A DNA stretch of 64,000 nucleotides from Aurelia coerulea. Taxonomy: Eukaryota > Cnidaria > Scyphozoa > Semaeostomeae > Ulmaridae. Within the stretch, counting starts at the first letter, position 1; each line of letters opens with the position of its first letter. The notes below the pieces were generated by a model. The model worked only from the letters and a program-made list of their open reading frames with translations, did no database searches and was not told the DNA's origin. Shown here in pieces: positions 8,666 to 56,199 of the stretch. The DNA lies in NCBI GenBank assembly GCA_039566865.1, contig CM076959.1:1905501-1969500 (forward strand). The letters are read 5' to 3'. Position numbers and translations under genes: made by a program.

Positions 8666-9820
8666 CAATGTTGGATTATGCTCTTTTCATTGACAGTTTT
8701 GTGATTGAAAGGTACTTTGAAGAAAGTTTGAAAGGTAATTTCAGCTCCTAGTGACTGAAACTTGCAATTTCAGATCAATGACTTTGTTACAAGACATCAC
8801 ATACATAGTTTTTGTTGATATGCGTAGGTTTAGGTATAGATTTTGATGTAGCAATTATGATTTGATGATTGAGTGGGGGCAGGGGTGGCACAAGAAGTTA
8901 TCTGCAGATGAAGAGTTTTGTAAGAGATGTGAAAGTAATTTTCAAGGCAAGGGTGAGATTCACTTCCTCATCAAATACCCTGTGCACTGCGTATGACAAT
9001 CTAAGGAAACTGTATTTGAATGTGATATTAGAAAACCTCAAAATGATAGAAATTAACTTTCTAAACATAGTCAAGAAAATACAAGAATGTAAGAAAAGTA
9101 CTTGAAGGAAGCATTCAACAGACATGAATTGAAATGGATAGTCCGCAACCAAGAACCTTCTAATTTTACTGCTTCATTTGCTACTATTGGCGTTGCTGTT
9201 ATTTTTACCTATATATTCTATTTTTTATTGTTATTGTTACATTTATTTTTAAAACATGTACCAGATGGCATGGGTATTGTTGTGTTGGAAAAAATAACTT
9301 TTGTGATCTCTTTTGAAAAATCATACAATATGCCACTTAACAAAGTTGTATTTCAAATATCACTTCTTGTTGTAGATCTCCTTTGAATCATATAATGGCA
9401 AGTGTAAGTATGAAAAGTTGTATATCAAAAACCATTTATCATAATTATGTAAAAGGTTTATTCATGTATTTCCTCTAAGGCTTGCACAAAGTTGATCAGA
9501 ATGCAGCATAAAGAAATCTTGACATCTGTAATGATAACAATGCAAGGAAATTCAAGCTTTTGAGCATAATTTGATTTTGTACAGTAGACCTCTAATGTAC
9601 CATGAAAAAGTTTGTTAAACTTTTTGCCTGAATTTGTGGTAATTTCTTTTTAAGGCACAATGTTTGAAACTGTCTGTAAAATTGATAACCTTGTGAATAA
9701 AAATATGAAAAACTCAAACTGACTGCTCATATTTTCTATTTGGCTTGTCCTAAGTTTCTACTCTACGAGAGCCCTTCATGTTTGTGATATTGATATTACT
9801 GAAGTTTATGATTAAATTAG

Positions 9821-12800
9821 GCATTCAGGTCTTGTCCAGCTTGCAGTAAAGGTCAGGCAATAAGCAGAAGACGATGCGTAGAGTGTGGCATAAGTTTTAG
9901 AAAGAAGGTGACAACAGATGAGCTTGGGGAGAGGTATGAAAAGTCGGCATTCACCGACCTGAAGAAGATCTTGAAAAAAGAGTAAGTATAAGCCGAGTAC
10001 AACGTGCTTTTGATTTTGTAAAAAATTTGAAATGATTAAATTGCTAAACTCTAAGAAATTGAAACCAGGAAAGCACTGTAATATAACATGGTACATCCAT
10101 TGCATCAAAACTCCGTTGCATCCAAAACAGAGATAAATCCGATGCTCTTTATAAGACAACTTAGTGAAGCTAAATGAAGCTCTTCTATTTGTATTGCAAA
10201 TGCTTGGATACCAAATGCTTGAACTCTTTATCGAGTATCAACTGTAGAAATACAACTGAAATTGGAAGTTGCTGATAATCATGAACATTATTTGTTGTAC
10301 CACTAGGTGAGCCAGAAAGAAGTTCCGCTTTCGAAAATTCATAGCGACTAGAGTACTTGACAGACTTGAATAATTCTAATTGTAGTTAATGGCAAAAAGC
10401 CAAACTATTTCTGTGCTTTTTCTCACATTTTTAAAGTCCTAAAAATACTGCAGAATGCAGAATCTTGGCTGCAGAATGTCTGAAAAAGTGCCTAAAACAC
10501 TTGAAATCGTAAGGGCAGAACAATACCCAAGAGCACTTCCAGCACTTCATTGCATTGTATTAACAATTACTGGAGATTTTGTTCAAGTTGATAAGTCAAA
10601 TTTGCATACCTTTTCACTGCTCATCAAAACAAGTGAAAATTCTTAGAAATACATCAATTTCTCGGCCATCAAACAGAATTTGATTGATTCCAATCGGTCT
10701 GGTACTCTTTGTGCTATGAATTTTCAAAAATGGGGACTTTTTTCTGGCTCACGTGGTTGTTATGATAATTATTAAGATGTATCATTCCTTTTGAAATGCA
10801 CCAGATTTCTAAAAGAACATAGGATTTAGAACAAAGATTCTTCTGAATGGGATTTCTAGAAAGCGAGAATCCTCTTGTAGCCTGTGTCTCCCACTTTTAT
10901 GATGAATTTTAGCGGAAAACTATCAATTTTTAACCATTTTTTGCAAATTTCAGCGAAACCCCACCCATGTTTATGGATAATCTGCCGAAAAAGGACACTT
11001 GTTCAGAGAATTTTGGACCCAAAAACCCATCCATAACGTTGGCATATACCCGTACCCTGAACATGTTATGTACCCCCCTCCGCATCCCAGACCCCAGTTC
11101 CGAAAAGAAAAGGGTCTGGAAGACAGGTTACCCTCTTTCTCCCAGCAGATTGTCATTGATTATTTTCCACTTAGATATATAGTTGATTGTAGAAGGTTTA
11201 TCAAAATCACGTTATTCTAGGCTGACATTCTTTATGCCAAGAATTGTGAAGTCATCATAATTGGATTAAAGAAAAACGGGAAGAGGAATTCTTTTTGGTC
11301 GTACAGCCCTGCTGAGAGTCTTGGGGAGAGATTCCTGAACGATGAGACAGGGCTGTGCGCACTTGATCTATTTCAGGAGTACATGCGTGAGAAACTTAAA
11401 GGTTGGTTCCCGCAATCAAAATGTTCGTTATTTATAAGAAACTTGGATTAGCCCATGGCACTAATACTCTCTTAACTTCACATGACACTTTGCACTTTTT
11501 AGTACTGAAATTGTCTTAATTTGTTTCTTAACGTGGGGGTGCATGAATTATGATGTCGTTTCTACCATTGCATTGCCGCATATTTTTGGTGACAAAAAGT
11601 ACACTGTTTACGAAGTGTTGTATATAATTCAATACACAAGAACAAAGGTTCCACGAACATTTTGCCATGTTATTCTTAAATTTATGTCTTGAAAGGTTCT
11701 TATTTCAAACATAAAGGGTTTCATAAAGTTGCATCATACCTTTGCATCATACAAAAGTACAACATGGTGCTCTTGTAGCTATACCAAATGAGTTGGTGTT
11801 AGTATGAGGAAGCCTTCCTACCGTTCAAGATTGTGTCTCATCAAATTAAAGATTTGGAATTGAATTGTACTTCCACCGTGTGATATACTACAATTCCTTC
11901 GTAGATAAAACTTCTGCTGTCGCAAGGAATAATAACGGTTCGTTTTATAATTTAGTATAATTTTTTTAAGAGAAACAAATATATCGCTTCATCATATCCA
12001 ATTCAAGATTAGGAATTGAATCTTACTTCTATTTTGTAATATATAAAAATTTCTTTCATATATGAAGATGCCACCGTTACTTTGAATAATAACGGTTTGT
12101 TCCAAACATTTGTTATTATTATCTCCATGAGAATGATCTATGTTTCACTGATCATTTCATTCGGAATATATCAATTTTAAGATCAGGAATTGAATTTTAC
12201 TTCGACCTTTTAATATATGAAAATTTCTTTCGTAGATGGAGATGCCACAGTTACTATGAATAATAATGGTTTGTTCCAAACATTGGTTATTATTATCTTC
12301 ATGAGAATTATATATGTTTCACTGATCATTTCATTCAGAATATATCAATTTGGAGATTAGGAATTGAATCTTGCTCCTACCTTTTAATCTTTTAATATAT
12401 GAAAATTTCTTTCGTAGATGGAGATGCCACAGTTACTATGAATAATAATGGTTTGTTCCAAACATTTGTTATTATTATCTCCATGAGAATGATCTATGTT
12501 TCACTGATTATTTCATTCGGAATATATCAATTTTAAGATCAGGAATTGAATTTTACTTCTACCTTTTAATATATGAAAATTTCTTTCGTAGATGGAGATG
12601 CCACAGTTACTATGAATAATAATGGTTTGTTCCAAACATTTGTTATTATTATCTTCATGAGAATTATATATGTTTCACTGATCATTTCATTCGGAATATA
12701 TCAATTTCGAGATTAGGAATTGAATCTTGCTCCTACCTTTTAATCTTTTAATATATGAAAATTTCTTTCGTAGATGGAGATACCACAGTTACTATGAATA

Positions 12801-31957: not shown

Positions 31958-34194
31958 TCTATCAAGAATTCTGGTTTGAAATCTCATCATTAATACAGTA
32001 CCTTTTAGTTATACTGCTGATTGCCTTGAATACAAGGGAAAGTTTTCTGAAATAGTTGTCCCAGCAGTACTTAAGTTTTTTTTGCTTTTTAGTGATGAGA
32101 GCTGGGCGCTCTTAAGAGTTTCTTATGAAAAACTTGTAATGTATGCTTCGAGCCAAGTAACGCAGATTCTTGGATTTATATAAATTCGGCTATAAATTGG
32201 AGAAAGCATTTTAAGTTGGCTTCTAAATTAAAAGAAACAAATTATGAATCTTGTTTGGCTTCAATTGCTAAACGTTCTTTGAAGAATAAATATTCGAATG
32301 ACCAAGGTATTGCGGAAATCTGTTACCAATCTTACCCCCCGACAAAAAGCGGTCAACAGAAGTGACCACTGAAGAGTAATGTGTCTTGTACAATGAGCGA
32401 TTTCTATACAGCATTGTTTAATTTGAATAGCTTCTTAAACAACAACCCAGGTGTTTGAGTAGTCTCACGACACCTCATATTTACAGGCAAACCTCAGATA
32501 TACTGGCACCTCAAATTTACAGGCTCGCACTACCGTGATATATGCACAATCTTCACAACTTCTCAAGACTTTTTATCTGCATTTGGGGAATTTTCATGAA
32601 TTTTCAATAAAACTTCATAGCAGAACAGTAATGATGCACATATGATCTTTTCTCACTTATTTAGGCTGTCTTTTCTCAAGTTCCCTCTTTACAAATTTGG
32701 GTGTATACATTTCATCCGGTCATGAAAATTCATTGAAAATCTTACCATTTTCTCCATCCAAATCTGTGGCAGCATCAGCAACTTGTTGAATATCATCGCC
32801 TTGAAATTCATCAACTGTTAACGAGTTATCAGAAATAGGGCTTGGTTTTGAATATAAAACAAGACCCCTAATGAACAATACCCTATGAATGAAAGGACTT
32901 TAAAATGTTGATACCTTTGATACTATAAATGATTGGCATGACAAAACAAATCTAATGGAGGTCTTCCGGTATATAATACCTAATGCCAGTCTGCATTCTT
33001 TGTAGTGCGCGGGGAAGATCTTCGCCGCGCCACTTTGACTGATTCCAGCCGCACCCGCGCCAACACTGTAAAAGGGCCACCTTCGCCAGTTTGTTTATAC
33101 AATTTGCTTGTACCCCCAATATTCAGATGCGCCAGAATTTACTTCAAAATAAGCTTCCCCGTGCCGAAATCAAAGAATACAATCTGGAATGTACAGTATA
33201 TGCCAAAAGCCCAAAAATTTCCTTGGGGGGGGGGGGCTAAATGCCACACTGGAAAGTTTGTATAGTGCATGGGGATAACATAAAAGTGCATGGGGGGTTA
33301 ATCTCCCACCCATGTCAAACTTCCCAATCCGGGTGTGTGTGCAAAAGCATACTTCCTAGTCTGGCCTTTATTTTGGTAACTGGACTGCTAAAACTAAGGG
33401 AAACATCTATCTGGCTGCTTAGCCTGTGCAAAAAGTCCCTGAATGAAGCTGCGTTCCAGACAAGTAGTGACCATGTTCCAGTATTTTAATATATACATTA
33501 TAGTATGTATAATAGTAGAGATAGGCCTAGGCCTAGTAACAATAGTATTTGCAGACAAGGCTTCTCTGCTCTGCACATAGAAAAGTTCTACATGCTAGCC
33601 ATGGGTCTAGGACCATAAACTAAGACTATAATCTACACTAACCAGTTTCATCTGATGAAGTGCTTTCGCATCCATTCCTTCTGGTGGTTCTTCCTCTCGA
33701 TCTCCTGCCTAGGCCCAATTTCCGGCGGTGGTAATTTTCTCTTGCACGGGCATTCGTAAATTTCTTCTGCGTGGAATTCTTTGGTGTATAATCCCAAGTT
33801 CTTTTAGTTGGTCTCCTGGCTTGTTGCTTTTTTCGTAACAATCGCTTCGCTTTGTCCAGGCTCGAAATCTTCTTCCCACGTTCATCACTGCAGCGACTGT
33901 CTTCGTCCGCCATTTTTTTTCCAAGAACAAGACAACAGTACCTATCCCGGCATGCCTCTTATACTCGTCATAGTAACAGCATATCAATGCTTAAAACAGC
34001 TATTTGACCTGTTTTTAGCCATTGTTGAAACAGGTCATATGCCTGTCATTAGCTCGAGAATAACCTGAAAGTCTCCCTCTCTTCCGATCTTCAATGATTT
34101 TAAACTTCTGATACTTTCTGAGATTTTTGAACTCCGACTCTTAACTTTTGTTTTTGATTCTGTTAATAAAACATCACCTGGTTGCTTTCATGAC

Positions 34195-34425
34195 TTTTTC
34201 TTATTTTGTTCATCTGTTCATCAATATTCCACAAGACAGGCCTTTCAAGGTGATTTATATATGTCCCGAAAAAATAGTCTTCAATATGGTCTAAAGTCAA
34301 TTCGATATCTAGGTGCTAAACTTTGGAATGCATTACCTGTGGAACTCCGAAATGCTCCATCAAAAATATTGTTCAAAGGAAAACTGAAAATTTACTTATT
34401 AGAAAAAGTCAACCGCTGAATCTAC
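34195..34425 (+). pseudogene. LINE ORF2 C-terminal fragment
   Basis: The frame reads SIRYLGAKLWNALPVELRNA followed by LFKGKLKIYLLEK. The KLWN-LP-E-R motif near the C-terminus is typical of CR1/jockey-type LINE ORF2 proteins. The RT core is absent. The 8.9-kb inverted-repeat element inserts directly downstream of it. Confidence 0.7.
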
Positions 34426-34679
34426 GGGGTGACCCAGAAAAAAGTGACCCAACGCAATCTGTTATAGAAAAAAAACTAAGTGGCAGATTTAAATATTTCA
34501 AACGTTGTTCTGTCGCTAAAAGACCAGCCTACATTATGAGTATTTTTCGCAATTTTTTTGGGCACGGGAATTAGCCTGCGTGCATCCCCTACTGTTTCCG
34601 CTGAGAAGGAAATTTCCGTTGAATTGAATTCATTTTCTGACGCCAGTAGGGTCTGCGAACCAGCGAATGGAAGCCTGTT
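34426..34679 (+). repeat. Left terminal inverted repeat of the 8.9-kb element
   Basis: It is inverted relative to 43116-43346, with nearly continuous identity over the inner 110 bp (from CTGCGTGCATCC to GGAAGCCTGTT). It probably contains the helicase promoter, since the helicase ATG is 121 bp inside it, with a CCAAT-containing stretch between. Confidence 0.9.
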
Positions 34680-34799
34680 CTTTGTCACGTGCAGGTTCCG
34701 CGGAAACACGGAACCATTTTGATTGGTCAATAGCCAATCCATTGTCTTGTGAAGTACTTCATGTGATGTGGCTCATGCTTCCATGTAAACAATTACAAA

Positions 34800-37503
34800 A
34801 TGGCGTCGTCGGAGAGTCCTGTAAGCTATGTGTGGGATACTGGAAAGTTTGACGAAGCGTTGAAAATGGCTTGCTATTTCTTCCAAATTGAAAGATTTCA
34901 CGATGATCAAGAAAAGGCTCTGATGAACTACTTCAAGAACAGGAGCAACCTTTTTTACAGTGCCCCTACAGGCCATGGCAAGTCGCTAGTTTTTCAAGCC
35001 ATACCTCTGATAGCCGATGTTTTAGCTGATAATAACATTGGAGCATCCAACATTCTCGTCATATCGCCATTGACCTCCCTTATGCACGATCAAGTTGAAT
35101 TTTTAAACAAGAAAACAGGAGTATCTGGAGCAGCAATTTTTGAAAACCAAGACGAACAAATCCTTCAGGATATTGAAGATGGAATTTATTCAGTTGTATA
35201 TGCTTCCCCTGAGTCAATGTTGTCTGGAGCTAGATGGAGGAAAATGTTATCTGCAAGCACCTTCTCAGAGTATTGCGTTGGTGTAGTATTTGATGAAGCT
35301 CACTGTATTAGACAATGGTAAATATTCTTGAAAGTATTCTTGCTGTTAGGAGCTCCCAGGGGGGTGTGGGGGTGGTGGGTACTCAGGTATATTTAAGATA
35401 GGATGCTCAGGCTGGGGTACAACAGATCAACCCAAAAAAGTAAGTTCTAGCATGAAAACAGACCACAGAAAATAACTTTTCTGACGCTATATACCCAAAA
35501 GTTATATACCCAAATGAAATCTATATCTTACATCTGTAAACAAGTTCCCTAGCTGATTAGATTTCTCCATATTGTATTTGGATTTCCAAGTTTTTGGTTT
35601 TTTAGTAACGTTACTTTATTTTGATTTTGTTTGTACAGTATATTTTCCACAATTTTTTATTTTGTCCCATATTTTAGACCCAAAAATGTAAACTAAAATC
35701 TCAGGAGCCCTAACAAATAACTGTACAAATTATTGACCCAAAAAATAACCCTTGCCCAAATTTTAGACCCAAAAAGGTAACCTGAGCACCCCTATCATCA
35801 GCATACCAACCAGAGTACCCCCCCCTCCCCCTGGGTAGGAACTTTAAAAGCTATTCTGTATTTCAGTATTGTAATAAGATTCTTTCTTTGAGGCTTCTGA
35901 TCACAATGGCAAGAAAGTGCTTTTAAATGTAACATTGATCTTCTGTAGTTTTACCTTAGACTATTTTAAAATGTTACTCATTTCCTCAGGAACAGAGACT
36001 AATTCCAAAGCAAGACATTCAATGTACAGTAAGAAATTAGCCTAAACAATATATTATTTACTTTGCAGGGGATTATCAAATTCAAAAAAAGTCCCATTCA
36101 GAAGATGGTATGGATTCCTTGGAGAGATTCGTTCATTGCTGCCAAGATCTGTTCAGTTATCTGTATTCACAGCCACTGCAACAAAGCTGACAAAGCTGAC
36201 CATATTTGATGTGCTTGGCTTGGATACTTTCAACACATTTATGATTGAAAAGTCACCAATGAAAGCAAATCTCAAATTCACTGTGGAATATCTAAGTAAC
36301 GACAAAGGTCTTGATGAAGTATTTCATAAGTTGATCAGAGAAATTAAAGAAAATTATCAAGATACAATTAGAACCATAATTTTCTGTCAAACACGCACTC
36401 AAGTTGCCCTCATCTGGAAAATGTTTGAAGTCAATCTGGGAAAGAAATTTTATGCCAATGAAAAGCAATCATGTTATGAGAGAATTGTGGAAATGTTCCA
36501 TGCTGGAACTGCAGCCAGTGTTAAGGACCACATAGTAAAGCAATTGTCAAGTGCAGGAAGCCACCTTAGGGTACTGGTATGCACGATAGCTGTTGGAATG
36601 GGCATCAACTGTAAAGATGTCAATAGAGTGGTTCATTTTGGGCCATCAAAATCAGTAGAAAGTTATCTGCAAGAATGTGGCAGAGGTGGTAGGGATGGTA
36701 GTGAGAGTCATAATTTTCTGTTGTACAATGGCTTCATGCTTTCTAAATGTGAAAATGATATTAAGGAGCTTGTATATACAGAGAAATGCAGGAGAGAAAC
36801 GATTTTGAAGCTTTTTCCAAACAGGTCAACAGATGAGAAATTGCATGGGTGTAATTGCTGCGACAATTGTGCGAAAGCCTGCACATGCAATGACTGTAAA
36901 AAAGGGAAATTTAAATTTTTACCTGTTGAAGAGCAAGAGAAAAGCATTGATATGCCTGCTAGGGTAAGGGAGGTATCCAAAGAGCAAGTTGTTAACCTGC
37001 AAACAAGATTGATAGAGTACAAGGATTCCATTTTTGAGCATCAAATGCATAGAGGTGTTGGAGAAGTTTCTCACCCTAATGTGATATTGCAATTCAGTGA
37101 CTTCCAGATCAAACAAATATGTCAGAACTGTGCAAAGCTGTTTACTCTGGATGACTTGCAAAAGTATGTTGAATTGTGGAGAAAAAAAGATTCAAAACAG
37201 GTGTTAAACATAATTTCCCAAATATTTCAAGATATTTTACCTGATGAAGATGATTTGCCTGGCAGCCAAGATACAACATTGGTAGATAATGATGATCTTG
37301 TTTCAGAATGGGGAGAGATCCGTGATGATTCTGAAATTTGCTCTCTGGACATTTCTGGTAATCACCATCTTGATGAAACATATGAAGGAACAATTGATAC
37401 TTTACAGTCTGAAGCTAACACCAATTATAATGATGACCTTGAGAAGTACATGGATTTGTCTGGTATACAGGTACTTGTAGATGAAAGTATGCATACAGAA
37501 TAA
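34800..37503 (+). CDS. RecQ-like DNA helicase (element-borne, intact)
   Basis: Two exons, 34800-35317 and 36069-37503, join through GTAAAT/TTTGCAG inside the Trp codon of the DEAH-box tail to give about 650 aa. Exon 1 has a Q-like motif (FHDDQEKAL), Walker A SAPTGHGKSLVFQ (about residues 54-66), ISPLTSLMHDQV and DEAHCIRQW. Exon 2 has FTATAT, RTIIFCQTRTQ, VLVCTIAVGMGIN and QECGRGGRDG, a Cys-rich zinc segment (HGCNCCDNCAKACTC) and an acidic tail. It is therefore an SF2 RecQ-type 3'-5' DNA helicase/ATPase with a RecQ zinc-binding region but no recognisable HRDC domain. The ATG at 34800 is the first in frame. It faces the DUF6589 gene tail to tail within one TIR element, which suggests a role in transposon replication or repair. 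Confidence 0.9.
35355..35836. mobile_element. Poly-G/poly-C-ended MITE in the helicase intron
   Basis: It starts CCCAGGGGGGTGTGGGGGTG near 35355 and ends AGTACCCCCCCCTCCCCCTGGG near 35836, with repeated GACCCAAAAAGTAA-like words inside. Same family design as 7534-7862 and 18541-19005. It lies wholly in the intron, so coding is not affected. Confidence 0.6.
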
Positions 37504-38270
37504 AGTTAGATGAGATCATATAAATTAAACAAGTTTTTTAGAGTTGGTGCCTTAGTGAGACATACAGTAGTTAGGACAAAGTTTAATCATAGTGTACGGT
37601 CCAAAGGTTTTACTCTCCCTTTCAATTATATCATTTGAAATTCAAGGGATCAAAAAATACAAAGTCAATGTACACTTGAAAGCTACAGTATGAGACGTAG
37701 GGCCATCAACAATTAGATTTTGTCATGCATTGTGGCCTGATGGGGGTAAGGGGTTCTGGCAAAAGCCGTGATGGATTACTTCTGCATGGTGGAATGTCAC
37801 ATGAGAAACTGACCAGGAAATATATGCAACATCCTCTAAAAATTTATCCTGTTTTTAGGCTATTGACACCCCGCAGTAGCCTCACATTGATGGATTTGAT
37901 TTACGAAATTTGAGATGACTATTTTCCTTTTGATGCACACAATGAAACATTTGACAATAAGGACAGTGTGAATTGGCACAGGATAAATCATGTTGATTGT
38001 TATTGTGCTTTGTGGAGATAAATGTTAAAAAAATGGATGATTTCTGGACTCAATTATGAAGGTCTAAGTCGACATGCCTAAACAGGAAATTGCAATGGGC
38101 CTTGATCATATAGGGGGGGGGGGTCAGGGAGTTTCCATGATCACGGCCCAATGACTGTGGTACCGTATGGGACAAAAGGTAATTGTTGATGACCCCTTAA
38201 CTGTATGAAATTTTGCACATAAAGTACAAACACAAAACAAGTAAAAGGCTCTGCCATTATGGAAAACATT
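37504..38270. other. Spacer between the convergent helicase and DUF6589 genes
   Basis: The 767 bp between the two stop codons are AT-rich with no exon. They must contain both polyadenylation sites. A G-run (about 38111-38121) is the only notable feature. Confidence 0.5.
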
Positions 38271-41200
38271 TCATCGGCTTGCCCTTTTTGTAAGAATATT
38301 TTTCTTGTGGCTTTCAATCCAACTGTACATGCTGTGCAAATTAAAGTCATCCAGTAAGCTATGTTTCATTCCATGAAATTTCTGATACTTTCTTTCAGCT
38401 TTGTATGTCATTGCTTTGTGTGTCATAAGATTGGCAACAATTTTTTTCAAATCTTTCTGATGTGAAGCTTGGCTATGTTTTCCAGATCGTCGGAAGTTTC
38501 TACAGATACTGTCGAAATTTTCAATGAGTTTCTTGTTTACCGTGGATGCTTTTGCAAATCTATCAATAGCCTTTCTATTTGTGTTATTGGGACCCAAAAG
38601 TCTAACCACATTCTTCATAAAGTTGTTGTAATGCTCAAGCATTAAATCAAGTGGGATGTTCCCACCATAACCAGACTTTGCTTTATGGAAACGATTCCAG
38701 ATAATGCTATGAGCATCCTGTGGTGATAATAAAGCTTCTATCTGGCAAATCAAGTATAATGCTTCCAGAGCATATTTCCTGCTTCTCTGGCCATCGCTTT
38801 GCAAGTATGGAAGAATAAACTTCCAACACCTGATGAGCCTCAAACCATCTCCTTCAGAGATTGCATCGTAGAAATTAAGGACTATCATGCCATAGTCCAA
38901 TATTGAGCGTTGATAATTCAACATATCATCAGCAGATTTGAATGCTTCTTTGTTTTCTTGGAGCTGCTGATGTAGCCCATGACTCTTTTCGTGGTCCAAT
39001 CGTCTCTTTCCATCATCACGGAACGTTTGACCACAACCTTCCAACCTGCATAGATACCTTCCTTCATCTGTCTTTTCATTGCTGACCCTTTTCCAATCTT
39101 CATATTCCTGCTTTTTCATGATATGCTTGCTGCGTTCTGTTTGCATGATGAACTGGTCAACAATCTTTGCACATAAGTTGTCAAAGTATTGCTGTTTGAC
39201 TTGTTTTGAACCATTCCGGGTATTTACAGGTAGCAGGTCACTGGATATCTCATCATCAACATCAGACATTCCTAATGTCTCCAAAAATGCAGCAACTGTC
39301 CGGGCAGTCACTTCAAGCAGGAAAAACTGCTTACATGCATCAACTCTCCTAGAAACATCTGTTACCACATTCCTTCTGTTTAGCAGGTTTCTGTCAGCAA
39401 ACATTGTGCATTTGTCATTTGGTGCTTTTGGGTCATAGAAATTGTCATATGCAAGCTGAAAGAGGATGAAAATTCAAGCACATGGATAAAAAGTTTTCAT
39501 ATTGTAAACAATGAAAAACAGTCAGATATCCATCAATGTTAGCCACTGCAGAAATGTGGCAATCTTTTGTCTGTACCTGGTGACCCAAAAAGTGCACAGA
39601 GAATATCTCCTACCAAAGATAGTGTTCAAAATACAAAAACAATTTATTGAAAATTTTTGAAAAGCTTATTGATAGAATTTTCTGTTTCAATTGCCCATCA
39701 TCTGGAATAGTTACTATTTTGAAATATTATACAGTGAACATCCACACATGAGAACCTACAATTTCGGAAGTCATCCTGGGTTCTTGTATGATTAATACAC
39801 AGTGGCGGACACCTAGGGGGGGGGCGAGGGGGTGCGATCGCCCCCCAATGTTGGCTAGAACAAAGATCTTTTGTTCGAAAACAATAGAAACAAACAATGC
39901 TTTTTAACCGAAACAATTGCTTCGCCCCCCCCAATATTTGGCAAAGTGTCCGCCACTGTTAATTGTAGTCAATTGATTGGTGTCTTATTTTAAAATTTCA
40001 GCCTCAGGTTATTGATCAACTACTGTACATTCTTATACATATGCTGGTGTTTACTGTAATCATTTTCCTTGTAATGTAATTGGTTCTCATGAAACAGAGT
40101 ACAATTTCATTGCTCTGTAATATTTAAATTCTCCAACATATTTCAGTTTCCACTGAGAGTTATGCGAAATTGAAACTTTATGTTAATTTTAAACACATGT
40201 ATGCACAACTGTATACACAGTACCAGCATTGGAGTATTTCTGAAATTTATAAGTCTATTTACTGTACCTGGAGAAACTTCATTCCGCCATGAAAATCAGC
40301 AATTTCTAGGTGGAGGCCATCTAGCTGCTCCTTAGGTGTAAATCCATTTTGCATTTGTAGAAGAGCATTTACTCCACGTTCGACAGATCCTTGGTCACCA
40401 ACGACACCAAGCTTACTAAATTGGTGAATACCACCATCATCCTCAGTATATGGAAGATACGTTTCATGGATCTTCTCAAGGACTTCCTGCATACCAGACG
40501 ACTCATTGGAATTAGCATAGATCATACCAATGAATTTCTAAAAATAGAGCATATATAATTTAGAACAGCACTTTAGTCATGTTTTTAACTCCGGAAAGTA
40601 AAACATCTGATGTAGTCTAAGTTTGAATACATTTTTTAAAACAAATAAAGCAAGAGCATAAGGATACTGTCAATGGCAGACACTAATGGGGATACTGTCG
40701 ATATTTGCTCCAACACTTCATTAGTTACTTCTTCTGAAGCCCTAAATCCATTTCTGTAAAATTGAAGCATCACTGTTATGTAATCAGTTTGATTACATGT
40801 TTACATCATCTGGAATTATTTTCTTGTTCAACTCCCTTCTCATGTTGCATAGAATGCATTAAATTAACATTTTTTTGCGTATTTTTTAATAAAATGAGAG
40901 TGGTGATCATGCGGATCAGGAAAAGAGCAGATTAATGCCTCAAGGTTTTTAGAAGGACCTGTGAATTTAACAGCTGTCAGTTTCAGTATCAAACATGGTT
41001 GTTGAATTTATACTCACTGTATCTGTTGGTTTGCTTGTTTCCATGGAATATGCATGCTTTATGTGAGGAATGGTTACTTCTTCGAATATTTTCAGATCGT
41101 TGATGTATTTACAAGCAATCCTGCCACAAATAACAATGTAATTCTGCCGCTGTAAATCATATTCTTTTCCGCTGGGAAGGAAGACACCATTTTCGATTTG

Positions 41201-42976
41201 CATGAGTCTCTCGGTCGGCTTCGGTTGGTCACTGAGGAGGTTGCAGACAATTCGATTTTCAGTAGATGCAACTGACACCCAATGGTTGTCCACATTCTGA
41301 TTATCCTCTGTCATATCATGCACCTGGGTTCTGAAGTCAAAATTGTCGATTACAATTTTCCGTTTGAGTGATGGAGTGAACACTGCAGACTTCAAGAATG
41401 CGTCATGATCCTTTCCAAAAGCATCCAATTTACGATTAAGGAAGGTGTGAGAAACAACTAGACGAAGTGGCTTCAGTCTCATCAATTTACCCTGAAAGTG
41501 TAAAAAGAGACCAAAATAAGAAAAGATGGAGCTAGTAATTGGGACTGTCTGGGATTTACATCTTAACATATAAAATAATCTGCAATGTCATATTATGACA
41601 GCATGTGAAGAAATACAGTATGCTGCGTGGCATTGAACATTATCTCCCATTTCTGTTGCAAACACTCTTGCTGAAAATTTGTAACTTTAGAATAATGGTA
41701 TAATGTAAAGACCGTTCAATAATTCAGTGGCAGAGCCAGACAAAATATATTGAGAGGGTAAAATTTCAGAAGTTTCTAAATGGGGGGGGGGGGGGTTGAG
41801 AAGGTATACCCCAAATTCATTTTCACTGCATATTTCAATATCATCTTTAGCCAAATTTTGATGGGGTGTCTTTCCTCCCTCGTGCCCAGGGAGCGCCGTT
41901 GAGCGCTCTGCCACTGCAATAACTTGACCAATGTTGAGTCCTAAATAAAAACTTACCATTATTCCTGAATGTTGTATGATTATACTGATTAGCAACTGGA
42001 CAACCGTCATTTGTGCACACCGATTCTTGAGACAAACTGCTGCAGCCATGGATGTAGTTTGAAACAAATAGCGATCATCTAGAGGCTCTTTATTGCGCTT
42101 CAACGAAGCAGCTTGCAATATGCTCATAAAAAGTGGTGCTTTTCCTTTTATCTCTTGGTTCATCTTGACAAATGAAAAGTTTATCATATCTTCCTGTTCT
42201 GTTCGTCTGAAAATACTTTTTGGCTCCTTTGCTTGGTTTGCGCCAACCAAGTTTTGCTTCTTTTGGACTTTACCTTTTTTGCATAGCGTGCAGCATTCTT
42301 TGTCGATTTCCTTCAAAACAATCTTAATGAGCTGGTGGCGAATTTCTTTATGTCTCCAAGCTGCAGACGCTATCTGTTTGTATGTCCCTCTGCCTAACAT
42401 CACACCTAATGGTACCAAGTCAGTGGGAACATCTTTTGATAGGATTTTGCTTGGCCAGCAAATCTTTAATTTTACTGTAGTGGCAGCCCTTCCCCCATCT
42501 GTCACATGAGAAGATTCTCCCTGTTCATAATTTGCTCCTTGTCTGCATGAAGTTGCATTACCTTTTGCATCCTGAATAATAATCAGCTTCCTAGGGGGTG
42601 CCCTTGGAGTACTTGCGATGATAGGCCTAGGCCTAGTAGTTGTCTCAACAATTGGACTCTTGACTTCAATATCATCTAATCGGCTTTCAATCTCAATTTC
42701 GCTGGCTATCTGTTTCTCAGTGTTGACAGGGTTATCGTTGTGTTCTTTGACCCTGTTCCATAACAATGTCTCTGCTTCTTGCAATTTCTTTTTGTGGCTT
42801 TTTCTCTTATTTATCAGTTCAATGCATCGCTTGCAAATGTAGCGAGACTGTGACTCCAAAACGACGGGAAAAGGAAGATCCAAGAATTCAGGCCGATAAT
42901 CAGTTTTGCCTGTGATTAAATTAAAGTCATGCTTTGCAACGATTTTAAATCCACATAAACCACATCTGCTCGCCAT
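38271..42976 (-). CDS. DUF6589 protein, DDE-transposase-like candidate (intact)
   Basis: Exons 42976-41957, 41491-41018, 40537-40268 and 39455-38271 all join in phase 0 with AG/GT borders, giving 982 aa. The N-terminus has CGLCG...CKRC zinc-binding pairs and a helical basic segment. Family landmarks follow: LGRGTYKQIASAAWRHKEI, MAAAVCLKNRCAQMT, IDNFDF (Asp389/Asp392), NHWVS...ENRI, GDQGSVERG (Asp546), a C2H2 finger CRLEGCGQTF...H-x4-H (about 724-747), AISEGDG (Glu789), WNRFHKAK and a SGKH motif near the end. This order matches DUF6589. The function is uncharacterised, but Asp-Asp-Glu in this order with a zinc-finger insertion looks like an RNase-H-fold transposase. It is convergent with the RecQ-like helicase inside one TIR element. 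Confidence 0.88.
39800..39958. mobile_element. hAT-like MITE (CAGTGGCGGA ends) in a DUF6589 intron
   Basis: The termini CAGTGGCGGACAC and GTGTCCGCCACTG are perfect inverted repeats 159 bp apart, with G- and C-runs just inside. The CAGTGGCGGA terminus is common in hAT MITEs. The 8-bp target duplication is not clean. It lies in the intron 39456-40267. Confidence 0.65.
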
Positions 42977-43115
42977 ATCGTTCGTTTCACATCGTGGCGA
43001 CTTGCTGCGACAAGTTGCACGAAAGCAAAATGGCCGTTCTGCATCCGTCCCGCTGAAGTTTCATGTTAAGCAATACGCGGGATCGCTGCGGGCAGAAATT
43101 ATGCTGATGTCAGGT

Positions 43116-43346
43116 AACAGGCTTCCATTCGCTGGTTCGCAGACCCTACTGGCGTCAGAAAATGAATTCAATTCAACGGAAATTTCCTTCTCAGCGGAAA
43201 CAGTAGGGGATGCACGCAGGCTATTGCGAAAAATACTCAGAATAGGCTAGTCTTTTAGCGACAGAACAACGTTTGAAGCATTTCAATCGGCCCCTTACTT
43301 AACTTTCTGTAACAGATTGCGTTGGGTCACTTTTTCCTGGGTCCCC
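43116..43346 (-). repeat. Right terminal inverted repeat of the 8.9-kb element
   Basis: This is the reverse complement of the left arm. It is shorter by about 23 bp because an A-run and a GGGCACGGGAATT-like segment present on the left are missing here. The DUF6589 start codon at 42976 lies 140 bp inside this arm. Confidence 0.9.
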
Positions 43347-43470
43347 GGTACACTGCCTCAATTTCTATCAACGTAAAATTAGTTTAGATATTAATGATAT
43401 ACAACCTTATCATATTCCATATCGTCTTTCTCTGTTTTGATGATGTTCCTCGTGTCTCTCCACCAAAACA

Positions 43471-44150
43471 TTAGGCCTATTAATCGACCCAGTCTCCAAA
43501 GAACATCCAAAGAGAAAAAAGAGAAAGGTCGGCTGGTTCTTGCCAACTGTTCAGGCCGCTTCGAACTTTTCCTGTCCACTTTGCAGCTTGTGAGCATTCA
43601 ACCCTTCAACAAAGCCCACCAATACACAGCTCAACGACCCACATCTTATTCAAACTCCGAGCATTGCAAAATAAGCCGCCTTTGCTATGGCTACTCAACC
43701 CTTCGTTCAATCGCCAGACGATCGAGGCAAAGCAACGGTCCACAGGACGATGTAATACGCCTACTGTGCTTGTGCATCCAATGAGAATGTGCGAATGCGC
43801 TTGCTCAGTGAAGATATTTACGAATGCGCAAGCGCAGTAGGCGTATTACATCATCCTGTGGACCGTTGCTTTGCCTCGATCGTCTGGCGATTGAACAAAG
43901 GGTTGAGTAGCCATAGCAAAGGCGGCTTATTTTGCAATGTTCAGATTTTGAATAAGATGTGGCTATCAAAGCATGCAAAGGGGTCGTTGAGCTGTGTATT
44001 GGTGGGCTTTGTTGAAGGGTTGAATGCTCACACGCTGCAAACTGGACAGGAAAAGTTTGAAGCGGCCTGGACAGTTGGCGAGAACCAGCTGACCTTTCTC
44101 TTTTTTGTCTCTGGATGTTCTTCGGAGAATGGGTCGACTAATAGGCCTAA
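43471..44150. mobile_element. Large near-perfect palindromic (foldback) element
   Basis: TTAGGCCTATTAATCGACCC at 43471 is matched by GGGTCGACTAATAGGCCTAA ending at 44150. The arms continue almost unbroken, for example ATCGCCAGACGATCGAGGCA on the left against TGCCTCGATCGTCTGGCGAT on the right, and GGTCCACAGGACGATGTAAT against ATTACATCATCCTGTGGACC. They meet at a short spacer near 43795. It is about 680 bp and non-coding. It lies between the two RecQ/DUF6589 units. Confidence 0.88.
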
Positions 44151-46239: not shown

Positions 46240-48734
46240 ATGGCAGCGTATAACGATTTTGTTTCTTTTGCGTGCTATACACTTTGGTACGAAAATTTTC
46301 AGCGCAATGGTGTGCTTGCTGTTCTTCAAGGTCAAGATGTATTCGTAGCAGCACCTACTGGGTCAGGAAAGTTCCTTATTTTCCAGTTGATCCCGTTTGC
46401 CGTGCAGGAAAAGCTGAAAAAGGAATGGCCTAAAAGAGCAGAATTGGAGAAGGACAATTTTGTGCTCATAGTTTCTCCTCTGATTTCATTGATGCGGGAT
46501 CAAGTACGAAGATTAACAGAGAAATAAATTTGCAGCCTGTCACTTTAAGATCCAGATGTAACGACAAAACAAGTTCTGATGGGAAATTACAAATTTCCAT
46601 TTGGATCCCCCGAAAGTATTCTGTCAAGCAACTTCAGAAGTGTTTTGAAGTCGCCTGAATTTCAAAGAAGATTATCATGTGTTGTGATCGATGAAAGTCA
46701 TTGTATAGTTAAATGGTATGTGATCATTTTATTATAGTACAAGTACTTTTGAATCATGTTTAAAAAAAGTTGTTTCCAGGGGATGCTGTAGTACAATTAT
46801 TGCATCATTTCATTATGGGCATTCTGAGTGCATTCTGACAGATGATTTCCTAATTCTGAATTTCAAAATCATATCAGATGCACATTTTTTTGTAAGAAAG
46901 CTCTTATCAAGAAACTCAACTATAAAGATCACCAAAAAATTAAGAAACTCCAGCTTTGGAAAAATGTAACTTGTGAAACTATTAATTCTGAAAGAGGAAA
47001 CCCTTATAATACTTTTAATTCATTCATTTGTTTCCTGTATCATATTACTCGCAAGATACTTGAGTAAAAAGGCTTCAAGAAACTTTATTTTAAAATATTG
47101 ATGAGGGTGCATGTAGTAAACATGAAGATTGTTATGGAACTGGTAAGAAACTGGTAATAAACTCTTGAGTTATAAAAATCTGATAATTGTGATTAACTTT
47201 CAGTGCTGGCTCAAATTCTTTTATAATAAAAATTAATTGTAGTTTAGGGTAGTAGGATTAATGTATGGAAGTAGAATTGCAAATATATTATATATATATA
47301 TATATTTATATCGTATCTTATATAAAAAATCAACCCTTCTGATTATGCATCATTATTTACAGGGGAACTCAAAGTCAAAATATGAGAAGATTTTGTCATA
47401 TGTATGGACAGCTAGCTGAGCTCCGCTCATTGTGGATGGTTGATCATATAATCCCGTATGTAGCAATGACAGCTACAGCTACAAAGGCAACCACTGCAAC
47501 TATAATAAGAAATCTTGAATTGAGGAACCCACTTAAAATTATCCAGTCACCTCACAGAGCCAACATCCATTATTCTGTGATAAACATGAAACATGATAAC
47601 ATAGAAGAAATATTCAAACCACTTATTGAAGATTTGAAAGGAAACAGGTACAACGCAGAGAGAACTATAATTTTTTGTCAACGGTTAAACACTGCTCGTT
47701 CATTGTACAGATTGTTTGATAGTCATCTGAGAGAACATTTTCCAGACATAAAACCATATGAAAAGTACCAAGGAAACACAGAGGATGCAGCGAAGGAATA
47801 CATTTCAAAGTCATTTGCAGATGCTAATGGATCAGTAAGAGTTCTTATTGCCACAATTGCTTTTGGAATGGGCGTTGATTGCAAAGGCTTGAGATTGGTC
47901 ATACACTTTGGTCCTCCTTCGGATATTGACAACTATTGCCAAGGAACTGGAAGAGCTGGCAGAGATGGGGAACAAAGCTATGCATTGCTGATAATGTATC
48001 CAAGATGTGTACACTCAAAGAGAGTGTCTGCTGCAATGAAGGACTATTGCACAAACACGGAAAAATGTAGACAGGAACTCATTTACCAACAATTCTCAGG
48101 TCCATACAAAAAAGTTTCACCAATTCATAATTGCTGTGACATTTGCTGCAAGAAATGTGATTGTTGTTTTAATAATAAGGCATGTTCAAAAGAATGTGAA
48201 GTTTTTTCATCCTTTGAAAGACGGATATGCAAGGAAGTATCATTGCAGCCATGTGCTACTAATGCAGTCCTGTCAGACACAGCACAAACTGAATTGAAGG
48301 AAGAGTTACAGCAATATAGGTTGAAAATTACAAAGCCAACCTCAGAGATGTACACAGGGAGTGAAATAACATCTGGCTTTCCAAGGAAAGCAATTGATGA
48401 GATAGTTAGCAACTGCATGAAAATTAAGGAGCCTAAAGATGTAATGAGGTTCTCATCTATCCTGAGCAGTGATCTGTGCACACCTCTGTGGAAAATTGTC
48501 ACTGAAGCTTTGAACATTGATTCATTTGTAAATATCAACATTCCTGGAGTTTCTTTGCCTGAAAGTGAAGTTGCTGCAGAATTGCCCAACTCAGATATTT
48601 CATGTGAAACATCAGAAAGTGAGAAATCAGAAAGTGACAAATCAGAAGATTCTTGTGATTCAGATAATTTCATCAATCTACAATACAGATACAGGTCAAG
48701 ACTGCCTTCATCATCCAGTGATGAATCAATATAA
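46240..48734 (+). pseudogene. Second RecQ-like helicase, decayed copy
   Basis: Exon 1 (46240-46715) has APTGSGKFLIFQ (Walker A with Phe where Ser or Thr is expected), SPLISLMRDQV, then a TAA after RLTEK at 46525-46527 and a second TAA. The later part (FGSPESILSS...VVIDESHCIVKW) is in another frame, so the exon is frame-broken. The intron is 46716-47362, at the same position (inside the Trp codon) as in the intact copy, and contains a TA microsatellite near 47289-47310. Exon 2 (47363-48734) is open: MTATAT, RTIIFCQRLNTA, VLIATIAFGMGVD, QGTGRAGRDG, a Cys cluster NCCDICCKKCDCC and a Ser/Glu-rich tail. It is clearly diverged from the copy at 34800-37503, so it is a different family, not a recent duplicate. 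Confidence 0.85.
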
Positions 48735-51415: not shown

Positions 51416-52218
51416 AAACCCACCTGAACCCATCTGAACCCAGCTGAATCCATCTGCACCCACCTGAACCCACCTGAACCCATCTGAACCCAGCTGAACC
51501 CATCTGAACCCAGCAGAGACCAACCTGACTCGATATAAATTCCCAAGAGGTCTCCTGCCAGGTGTGATGGCTCTGTTTGGAAATATCAAGAACAATGTAT
51601 CAAAAGAAGCGGGTGATAAGCATAGTTAGCGCTTTATGGTGTTAATGAAAACAGCTGAATAACAATCGTTCTGATCTCATTGGCTCGGACGGTTTTTCAT
51701 TTTTTCATTTTATGGGTTCAAAATGCCTTGTCGATTTGTGTGTGGCCATAACTCCGCCAATCCAGAAGATATTTTTGCCGGCATCCAAACTTTAATACCC
51801 AAACATCTGGAGAGTAGATTTCTTAAAAAAAAATGGGGAAATTTCAAGCAATTTCTTTCCTGGTTGCGTTTTATGAAGGTAGGTAGGTAAACTGTCGAAA
51901 AATTGTCATGGACTTCTTTCGCAGTGATATCACTCTCCTACTAAATCATCAGGCCTAACTTTTTCACCTTCACGTGTACACAAGATTGTTTTCGTCATTT
52001 ATTTGACTAAAACGTCCTTTGAGTTTCCGTGTTTGTTAATCTGAAGGGCTATATTTCCAAACAGAGCCATTAGCATTATGAACAAGTGTTGAATGCCAAT
52101 TCCCTGCTTGTGTGCTTCATACAAATCACAGGACCTCTTGGGATTTCTATTGCGTCAGGTTGGTCTCTGCTGGGTTCAGATGGATTCAGCTGGGTTCAGA
52201 TGGATTCAGCTGGGTTCA
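51416..52218. mobile_element. Foldback element with 10-bp minisatellite ends
   Basis: The left end is an array of about ten 10-bp units (CATCTGAACC, CAGCTGAACC). The right end is the inverse array (GGTTCAGATG, GGTTCAGCTG). Inside, AGCAGAGACCAACCTGAC plus CCCAAGAGGTC on the left pair with GACCTCTTGGG and GTCAGGTTGGTCTCTGCT on the right. GGCTCTGTTTGGAAATA also recurs inverted. Its right end abuts the truncated C-terminus of the second DUF6589 gene. Confidence 0.8.
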
Positions 52219-55200
52219 GCAACTACTTTCTTCAAGTCGTTCTCTGATGATTTTGCATAATGTTTCCCAGATCGTTTGATGACACCACAGAAAGTGTCAA
52301 ATTTATCTAGGAGCGCTTTGTTACACGTGAGGGCTTTGAGTAACCTATCAATTGCTTTCTTGTTTGTGACATTAGAGCCTAGCTTTCTAAGAATTGTCTT
52401 CACAAGAAGGTTAAAATGCTCCAGTGCCATATCCAAGGGTATGTTTCCACCAAGCCCAAGTTTAGACTTGTGGAACCTGTTCCATATCAAACTGTATGCA
52501 TCCTTTGGTGGCAGGAGGGTGTTGACTTAGAACAGAAGGTACAGCCCTTCAAGTGCATATTATCTGCTTGATGCACCATCTTTCCTGAGGTATGGCAGCA
52601 TAAACTTCCAGCAGCGCAAAACCCTTGATCCATCCCCCTCTGAGATTGCATCATAGAAGTTCATTTGCAACATTCCATATTCAAGAAGTGAGCATTGGTA
52701 GTTCTTCACATCATCACTTTGTCCCTTGTCTGCTCCATCGGTAGAAGTTTGAATGCGATGAAATCCATGCAGCTTCTCATGTTCTTTTCTTATTTTACCA
52801 TCATGCTTGAAAGTGTCGTTGCAAGTTGGTAAACGGCATTTAAAGCGACCATCTTGAGTCGTTGGGTTGCATGTTTTGTGCCAGTCATTGTACTTTTGGT
52901 TCATCATGATTGACTTCTGTACTGATGCATTAACTACAAACTCATCAACTATTTCTGATGCCAATGAATCGAGATATCGCTTCTTTTCAAGGCTTGACTC
53001 TCTACACAAGTCGGCAGGCAATATGCCAGGTGTTGGAATTTCCCCTAAAGATTTGATTTTTAATCGTTGCATTGCTGCTGCTAAGATTCTTGCTTCCACC
53101 TCTAGGAAAAAGAACTGTTTGCAAGCATTATACTTCTTCTTCACATCTGTTGATACATTTCTTCTGTTAATGAGGGTCCTATCTGCAAACATGGTGCATT
53201 TATCACTGCTCACTTTTGGGTTGTAGAAGTGAAGCTAGAATAAATACACAACTTCTTTGAGAAATTATTCATATTTTATCCATGGGGGAGGCAGCAAACA
53301 TTGGAAATTGAGAATTGGGACCATTTCTTGGTAAAATTTGGAAAAAGAAAACAGAAGGATTTGAAAGGTTAGGCAGCACCACCCAGAGGTTTATTCAGCT
53401 TTGCACCCCTTGAATCACATGTATAGATTCAACCTGCTTTAAACAAGTAAAACTAGAGGATAATCATTGTGCTGAAAGGAAGAAAGTACAGTACAGGCCT
53501 TGCACACATTGAAGTGGTTTTCCTGCCTTTCATATGGCAGTCTCATATGGCTCAAGAGTTCCCATCAATGTAAAGAAATTTTGTCATGTTAATGGGCACA
53601 CAGACTGTATGAGTATCCAGCGAACATCCATTGGTATAATAAAAGTACTTCAAAATTGTAATTAAATGTATTTTTCTGCAAAATAACATGGGAGTTACTG
53701 ATTTACTGACTGATTAATGGATTGATTAATTGAATTACACATGAAAACCTGAAACTGCTGTACTGTTTCTGCCGAAAGTTTCATTGTTCTGAACAAATTG
53801 CAGGATTCACTGCAAAAGTAATGCCTGATATCAAAGACAAATGACTGATGTACTGCATTAAAATGGATTGCACCAGTGTACAGTACAAATACCCTGTAGC
53901 TACAGTATATTTGATATTCTCCCCAAATGATCAAAATAATAGAACAATAGTGGCATGTGGCCCTATTTTTCTCAGCACAAAATAAAATCTTTGATCAGAC
54001 CAATATAAATCATTTGTCTTTTACATCAGTCCAAATTTTGAAGCTCATCATTTTGTCTATCTAAACATATTATGCATATACTGTACTTATATGTACCTGT
54101 AGAAATTTCATTTGTGCATGGAAGTCCGCAATCTCAAAATGGATACCATCAAGACGCTCTTCTGGTGTGAATCCATTTTTCAACTGTTTCAAACAATAAA
54201 CTCCCCTCTCAACACTTAGCTGATCAGCGGCAAAGCCTTGCTCCGCATAAATTGCATCTGAACACGCCCCACCATCTGCACTGGGGACATACTTATGCAG
54301 CTCAGTCAATACCTTGCATATACCATCAACATCATTTTCGTTTTCATAAATGATTCCAAGGAAAGTCTAGAAAAAAGATTCCATGCTTATTTTTGATATA
54401 TGTATCATAATAAATGTTAACAATTAATTGTATATATCAAATATAACTTTATACTCTGTATATCAATATAACTTTATACTGTACATGAGTATAACTTTAT
54501 ACTCATGTACAGTAGTCCACCATGAAAAATGAATCAACAGAATGCAGTTTTGGTACTGATAACACCACATGGCATATAACACATGATAATATAATTGATT
54601 TTCAATTATATGTAAAATACAGTATGGTAGCCTTGATTTAATGGGGCTTTTGCAAGAAATTTTGACTCAAATAAAACAGACTGAGGAAGTTGTGATACCT
54701 TGGGATGGATGACAAGAAATTACTGCAATGACAAATTTTAGTCCAGTTCAAATTTTGCGAGATTTCAACTCCAAAGACAGATAGAGATACATCTCTGCTT
54801 CAAGATTTGCTGTTGAAGTGACCTTTTATAAACAACAAAGCCACATTTTGAAGGCAACTAAAACCGCAAAACTTAATGCAAGTTTATCCCTTAAAATTTG
54901 GGTGACTCACCGTTTCTGTTGGTTTGCTGGTTTCCCTCCTGTGTTGGTGTGTGATGTGCTTCTCCGTAACGTCTTGCAGGAACTTCAGGCAATCAATGTG
55001 GGATGTGATTAACCTCAATACCAAAGCTGTATTATCAGTACGCTGCTTTCTGTGGTCAGATTTGTCAGGGAGGCAAACAGCATTATCCATATCAGCCAAG
55101 GTCCTATTTGCGGGTTTTTCAGCAGAGTTGTACCCAACTTGAGAAATGCGGTTTTCGGTGGAAATGACAGTAACCCAATGCAGATCTTTATTCTGATTCT

Positions 55201-56060
55201 CTTCTGTCATCTCATGTCTTTGCACATAAAGATCTACGTTTTCAAATATGATCTTCCTTCCTGGATCCTCAGCAATTTCTAAAAGCATAATGCATAAATG
55301 GTTAACATATGGTTTCCCTGCCTTAAAATTTTCAAGAATTCTTATGAATTGTTGACAATTCCCTAAAGGAAAGTATGTCATGACTCACAAATTCTTGTAC
55401 CTGTTGATCTCCAAAGTAATGATTTGAGAATCTCATTGTATTCAAAAATCCCTGAAAGCAATTTCAGGTTTGAAACATTGGGAAAAGAATTTTTTTTCAG
55501 ATACACACCTGACAATCAATGACTTGTAAATTGTATAATTTGGAAATTTTGTCAGCCCTTCGATGAAAAACTCAAAATTTAATCACAAAACATTGTTGAG
55601 TTTGGCAAAAGACTGCCCTGTCGTAGAAACCCCCAACACCCAAGAATAATATTCATAATGTACCTTCTTCGTCTTCATTATTGTTCTCTTGTTTATCTTC
55701 AGCCTTCTCAGTTCTTCTAGGTGTTGCATAATTTCTTTGTCTTATAAGCTTACTGATCCCGTCTAAAAATTCATCAGATTCTGCATCTTTGCCAACTTGG
55801 TCCACTACAATATTTCGAGCTATTGCTTGCATGTTTTGCCGGTCAACACAGTACTCCTTTATGGCATCATCATTGGCGGCTGGAGTGTTGTTACCAGATG
55901 GAGTGGCTTCTTTCTTGTTCATTTGTGTGAGTCGTTTGGATTCATCCCTTACTTTTTTCAGAATTTGCTCATCATGATTTAGGCCAAACTCATCAAGTTT
56001 TTTATACATAAATGTATGTGATGTTGTCAGGTTCAATACACTTAGCCTCAGCAAAGTTGT
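52218..56060 (-). pseudogene. Second DUF6589 gene, decayed and truncated
   Basis: Exons on the minus strand are 56060-55664, 55278-54911, 54366-54097 (270 nt, the same length as exon 3 of the intact copy) and 53234-52218. Landmarks are FENVDLYV, HWVTVISTENRIS, ADQLSVERG (GDQ reads ADQ), FADRTLINRRNV, a C2H2 finger CRLPTCNDTF, AISEGDG and IWNRFHKSK. Two in-frame stops lie in the last exon (TAA near 52557-52559 and about 52531). The C-terminus is cut at a foldback element, and no counterpart of the large first exon is found upstream. An extra phase-1 intron (55279-55663) is present compared with the intact copy. It forms the same convergent pair with the helicase at 46240-48734. Confidence 0.85.
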
Positions 56061-56199
56061 CTGCAGAGTAAATTGAGATGTAATAATATTCAATGTGTGC
56101 TAATTTCCTTCTGAATACAAAATTTTGAAATTAATTGATACTTTCTTAAGATTGAAACACCCCATGATTGTTTTCAGTTCTCTTTTTACCAGAAAACAT

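Follow-up and report, generated by a model that had tools for sequence, protein, structure and literature searches.

Helitrons are DNA transposons that carry a PIF1-type helicase and a Rep domain and are not known to have long terminal inverted repeats (TIRs) or target-site duplications (TSDs). The hAT and P elements generate 8-bp TSDs and, to our knowledge, have no helicase gene, and Kolobok elements target TTAA. According to the relevant passages of PMC9587614, KolobokH combines a DDE transposase and a RecQ helicase within one DNA transposon, and the RecQ helicase of Kolobok-1_CCri, from a red alga, is encoded on the opposite strand. AcademH groups the Academ elements of animals and fungi that bear a helicase (Kojima 2020, Mob DNA 11:15, as cited in passages of PMC10045372, PMC10799480 and PMC12210899), and its TSDs are given as 9 or 10 bp in the passage from PMC10045372. 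Here, we analyzed a 64,000-nt stretch of the Aurelia coerulea genome (GCA_039566865.1, contig CM076959.1, positions 1,905,501 to 1,969,500 of the forward strand), referred to as the window. Positions 34572–43223 very probably constitute an autonomous, recently active cut-and-paste transposon, AcademH-like, with a DDE transposase of the DUF6589 family and its own RecQ/WRN-like helicase. The exact ends, the TSDs, the two-gene content of divergent families and the short derivatives with the same ends were observed directly. An initial annotation of the window had proposed an autonomous TIR transposon with the DUF6589 protein as its probable transposase, and precise ends, TSDs, the pairing in divergent families and the predicted fold uphold this proposal.

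Ends, copies and target-site duplications

The element and its repeats occupy the following positions.
34572–43223, no strand assigned: whole transposon, 8,652 bp, delimited by genome copies of the inner TIR with flanks that vary by site
34572–34679, + strand: left TIR, 108 bp, beginning TAGCCTGCGTGCATCCCC, supported by complementarity to the right TIR and by genome copies
43116–43223, − strand: right TIR, 108 bp, supported by complementarity to the left TIR and by genome copies

The two TIRs, which form the inner arms of a longer inverted repeat, are 100% complementary over 108 bp each, and the terminus starts TAGCCTGCGTGCA. Searching the genome (574 Mb) with the inner TIR and adjoining DNA gave 65 matches. 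Of these, 62 begin at position 34572, the first base of the query, and the remaining three begin 5–32 bases further in. The flanking DNA differs from site to site. The initial annotation had set an 8.9-kb element at 34426–43346; since 62 of the 65 matches start at 34572 and the flanks vary, the true unit measures 8,652 bp and has TIRs of 108 bp. The entire 329-bp TIR query is kept in eight loci including the window, at 96–100% identity. Among the other copies with both ends read, five long ones measure 8,496–9,263 bp and one with an internal deletion measures 3,936 bp. Three of the eight loci, on contig C10 (C10:6192525, C10:6481224 and C10:7032670), have identical flanks and a common TSD (GAGTCCGG), and they therefore represent one site, apparently duplicated on one contig.

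TSDs were counted at sites of the window element's family (family 1) with both ends readable, taking the three C10 copies as one site. Copies L035, L037 and L049 were left out, as one end only was available, and L036 (577 bp) was counted though more distant, at 80% over the matched stretch. TSDs flank 24 of the 28 sites: 20 are of 8 bp (four with one mismatch) and four of 9 bp (one with one mismatch), which defines the target duplication that the initial annotation had left to be established. When left and right flanks were drawn from different sites, 1 of 756 combinations matched. TSDs are lacking at the other four, namely the window copy, L029, L032 and L048.

A second family (family 2, loci L057 and L058) has a 107-bp TIR, TAGCCTGCGTGCAGCCTCTACTGT, with 52 genome matches. 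Both ends were readable in 10 of 20 fetched short sites, and nine of these ten carry TSDs, six of 9 bp (one with a mismatch) and three of 8 bp; the corresponding control gave 0 of 90. Of five further family-2-like copies, both ends were obtained only for those on C124 and C226, which represent the same site: an 8.8-kb copy, reversed on C226, flanked by a 9-bp TSD. No TSD was found at the long copies L057 and L058. Among the sites read in both families, no 10-bp TSD was seen.

These data also bear on the reading that two host genes lie between repeats by chance. The genes are intact, spliced and stop-free, as host genes would be. This origin is extremely improbable given that several long copies lie on different contigs and that there are TSDs and short derivatives, and it was rejected on the multiple element copies with TSDs. 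Arms absent elsewhere and single-copy host genes, which would have spoken against a transposon, are thus not what the genome contains.

Two genes and their conserved pairing

The TIRs enclose two convergent genes, with the following exons.
34800–35317, + strand: helicase exon 1, with SAPTGHGKS and FDEAHC (Pfam DEAD, 8.6e-17; splice model)
36069–37503, + strand: helicase exon 2 including the stop, with Helicase_C, QECGRGGRDG and a Cys-rich region (Pfam Helicase_C, 3.2e-16)
41957–42976, − strand: DUF6589 exon 1, with a Cys-rich N-terminus (splice model)
41018–41491, − strand: DUF6589 exon 2, with IDNFDF and the candidate first catalytic D, D389 (splice model, conservation)
40268–40537, − strand: DUF6589 exon 3, with VVGDQ, the candidate second D, D546, and ADFH (PF20231 weak, below cut-off on its own)
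38271–39455, − strand: DUF6589 exon 4 including the stop, with a C2H2-like finger and LDLMLEHYN with E862 (Pfam PF20231, 2e-23)
39800–39966, no strand assigned: private insert in DUF6589 intron 3, about 167 bp, with CAGTGGCGGACA...TGTCCGCCACTG ends, window copy only

The exon models agree with the two stop-free, spliced, convergent genes described earlier. The helicase (650 aa) is encoded by two exons and the DUF6589 protein (982 aa) by four, all of them phase 0; every intron is GT-AG. In the helicase we located SAPTGHGKS, FDEAHC, FTATAT and QECGRGGRDG, which we take to be superfamily 2 (SF2) motifs, and a Cys-rich stretch. Its closest match in the PDB is human WRN (E 1.6e-31). Its named near relatives are cnidarian, with one from a mollusc (Mytilus), followed by ordinary RecQ proteins. 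Of the earlier description as a RecQ-type SF2 helicase with a zinc-binding region, the helicase part is borne out by DEAD, Helicase_C and WRN, whereas the RecQ_Zn_bind match falls below its curated cut-off (17.2 vs 25 bits).

The DUF6589 protein has at least 59 matches in its own genome, at 45–59% identity outside its own family, and its named near relatives are all cnidarian. PF20231 is the sole Pfam family above cut-off in its exons, with no hAT or P match. D389, D546 and E862 are conserved. Two predicted models and VIA-align rankings place D, D and E in register on an RNase-H-like fold, and the top fold matches of the models are hAT (Hermes) and P; a DDE fold is thus supported by predicted models. 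A Foldseek search with the transposase model returned nothing at E ≤ 0.001. The DUF6589 profile gave weak matches to PDB sequences, the best being a C2H2 zinc-finger chain (E 0.011), and most of the 20 matches are zinc fingers. A profile search for distant relatives found 24 proteins, 19 of them absent from the first list; the few named to species are cnidarian, and none of the 24 bears an Academ name. In the open-licence literature searched, DUF6589 was not found, alone or with a helicase. Judging from the precise multi-copy ends, the TSDs, the conserved pairing and the predicted fold, DUF6589 is probably a DDE transposase.

Among seven long copies examined, both frames are open in the window copy and L030. 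In L031 the helicase is open and the DUF6589 gene has a 1-nt deletion. Both genes contain stops or indels in L029, L032, L033 and L035, the L035 sequence being partial. Six other copies were aligned; in each, all four introns retain their GT and AG ends, and the site of the 39800–39966 insert is empty.

Eight divergent loci were picked through DUF6589 protein matches. As L057/L058 and L059/L060 form pairs, these loci represent six families. A convergent helicase is present at all eight, with pieces 31–61% identical (a fragment only at L059). On the helicase side, a YAGCCTGCGYGCA-like end with 0–2 mismatches is seen in five of the six families. At L064 the match has two mismatches and is weak, because a second match of that quality lies elsewhere in the same locus, and no such end is shown at L063. 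In other gene sets, relatives of the helicase and DUF6589 carry neighboring numbers, adjacency being read from the numbering: LOC135696120/LOC135696119 in Rhopilema esculentum, where both lie on a contig of the same length (11,089,206), and gene20986/gene20985, gene10124/gene10125 and gene8376/gene8377 in EukProt. The helicase–DUF6589 pair is old.

The window also holds a second, decayed pair, with a helicase at 46243–48095 (+) and DUF6589 at 52218–56093 (−). Its pieces are 32% and 43–52% identical, respectively, and both genes contain stops. With up to two mismatches allowed, no TAGCCTGCGTGCA-type end occurs downstream of 43300 in the window.

The conserved pairing indicates that the helicase is a kept partner. 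It could instead be a captured host gene, a passenger dispensable for transposition, which we consider rather improbable. Its nearest solved relative is WRN/RecQ, and it is absent from the short derivatives, as expected for any copy moved in trans. The ratio of nonsynonymous to synonymous substitution rates (dN/dS) between L029 and L030 is 0.42 for the helicase, a value that suits a passenger, and 0.26 for DUF6589. Against a passenger stand the pairing and convergent layout at all eight divergent loci, the adjacent numbers in the four gene pairs, and helicase dN/dS values of 0.17 and 0.22 for the window copy versus L029 and L030. These two comparisons span 0.15–0.26 over both genes, with few substitutions. 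Helicase values reach 0.6–0.8 in pairs with L032 or L035, and DUF6589 gives 0.52 for L029 versus L032.

A MITE around the window copy

Outside the TIRs lie the two halves of a miniature inverted-repeat transposable element (MITE).
34423–34571, + strand: left half of a MITE of about 624 bp, outside the element, about 149 bp, TAC...GGGTGACCC end (genome matches, fetched loci)
43224–43350, + strand: right half of the same MITE, outside the element, about 127 bp, ...CCCCGGTA end (fetched loci)

The arms of the window copy are composite: a transposon TIR inside the halves of a separate MITE. The outer arms (34428–34531 and 43243–43346) are 88% complementary, and the full composite arms have 86% identity over a 257-column alignment. 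Inverted repeats thus exist as first reported, but the 254- and 231-bp arms are each the 108-bp TIR plus a MITE half. The left outer arm has at least 41 genome matches including the window's own, with 40 of 2,291 candidates scored. In six of seven fetched loci (L002–L008) the MITE has both ends and no core element; at L005 one MITE end only is visible. Its ends are TACCGGGTGACCC...GGGTCACCCGGTA, with TA at each end in six copies, among which no duplication longer than TA was seen.

It is highly improbable that the whole 8.9-kb block with its 254/231-bp arms moves as one transposon. The outer arms are inverted and end in TA...TA, as such a unit might, yet such arms are missing from the other copies with both ends read (five long, one shortened), and the outer arms exist as a MITE without the core. 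As TIRs, the outer arms were rejected on these two observations.

At the insertion in the window, the left MITE half is followed directly by TAGCC..., the right half opens at ...GGCTA|TTGCG, and a middle portion of about 350 bp is absent from the MITE. We infer that the 8,652-bp element inserted into the MITE and that a later deletion began exactly at its right end, and such a deletion could be left by aborted transposition. At L064, 271-bp inverted arms (1085–1354 and 9620–9889, 91%) enclose a divergent helicase/DUF6589 element and end inward in ...CACCCGGTA, resembling the window's MITE end. Nesting inside outer inverted arms may recur there. A MITE can imitate longer TIRs and mislead border calls.

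A near-perfect palindrome at 43471–44150, with arms of 170 and 139 nt that are 94–95% complementary, lies right beside the MITE half and is probably another foldback element. Directly left of the element, the end of an open frame (34069–34419) presumably resembles a non-LTR reverse transcriptase tail.

Relation to AcademH and proposed mechanism

The combination of helicase and transposase is not new in itself, since AcademH was described in 2020. The window element resembles AcademH in carrying a helicase (window copy and eight of eight divergent loci) and in its animal host. The TSDs overlap at 9 bp and differ in range, 9 or 10 bp for AcademH in the passage from PMC10045372 vs 8 or 9 bp here. 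Likened to AcademH by its description rather than through Academ sequences, the element probably belongs with or near this group, and it is likely that DUF6589 is the AcademH transposase. The transposon would then probably be of an already known kind, with the DUF6589 assignment being new.

Other systems share some of these features. As described in passages of PMC9587614, KolobokH likewise has a DDE transposase and a RecQ helicase in one element, and Kolobok-1_CCri likewise has its helicase on the opposite strand. KolobokH was rejected because the two separate convergent genes here depart from its definition in that source and the TSDs are 8–9 bp, not TTAA. The hAT (Hermes) and P elements are alike in the fold of the transposase models, a similarity of fold only, and in 8-bp TSDs. 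They differ in giving no Pfam sequence match to the DUF6589 exons and, as far as we know, in having no helicase. Helitrons are also helicase-encoding DNA transposons. The window element differs from them in its long TIRs, its TSDs and a helicase that is RecQ-like, not PIF1-type, and the six open reading frames scanned with Pfam contain no Rep domain.

DUF6589 could also define its own eukaryotic DDE superfamily, separate from Academ and characterized by an obligatory RecQ/WRN-like helicase gained independently of AcademH, 8–9-bp TSDs, a YAGCCTGCGYGCA-like terminus and wide diversification within one genome. The closest folds, hAT and P, would suit this reading, as would the family 1 TSDs, mainly 8 bp (20 of 24) with none of the 10 bp included in the AcademH range (passage from PMC10045372). 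We consider a separate superfamily unlikely, as the family 2 TSDs are mostly 9 bp, overlapping AcademH, and the helicase hallmark is common to both.

For the AcademH-like element, the predicted models suggest a DUF6589 transposase with a DDE domain carrying a helical insertion, in a hAT/P/RAG-like architecture, and this protein would have the catalytic role. The transposase would bind the 108-bp TIRs, perhaps through its Cys-rich N-terminus, excise the element and join its ends to the target at staggered cuts 8–9 bp apart, and gap filling would leave the 8–9-bp duplications. The helicase, as a fixed second component, would probably unwind the ends or help repair. Because they share ends and TSDs, the short derivatives would have been moved in trans.

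PF20231 (DUF6589), a Pfam family of 'unknown function', would gain an assignment as the DDE transposase of TIR elements that make 8–9-bp TSDs and also carry a RecQ-like helicase. If true, 'uncharacterized' cnidarian genes are to be re-annotated as transposons. The element would also offer a system for finding out why certain DNA transposons bring along a helicase, as intact two-gene copies and short derivatives that could serve as natural test substrates occur together in one genome.
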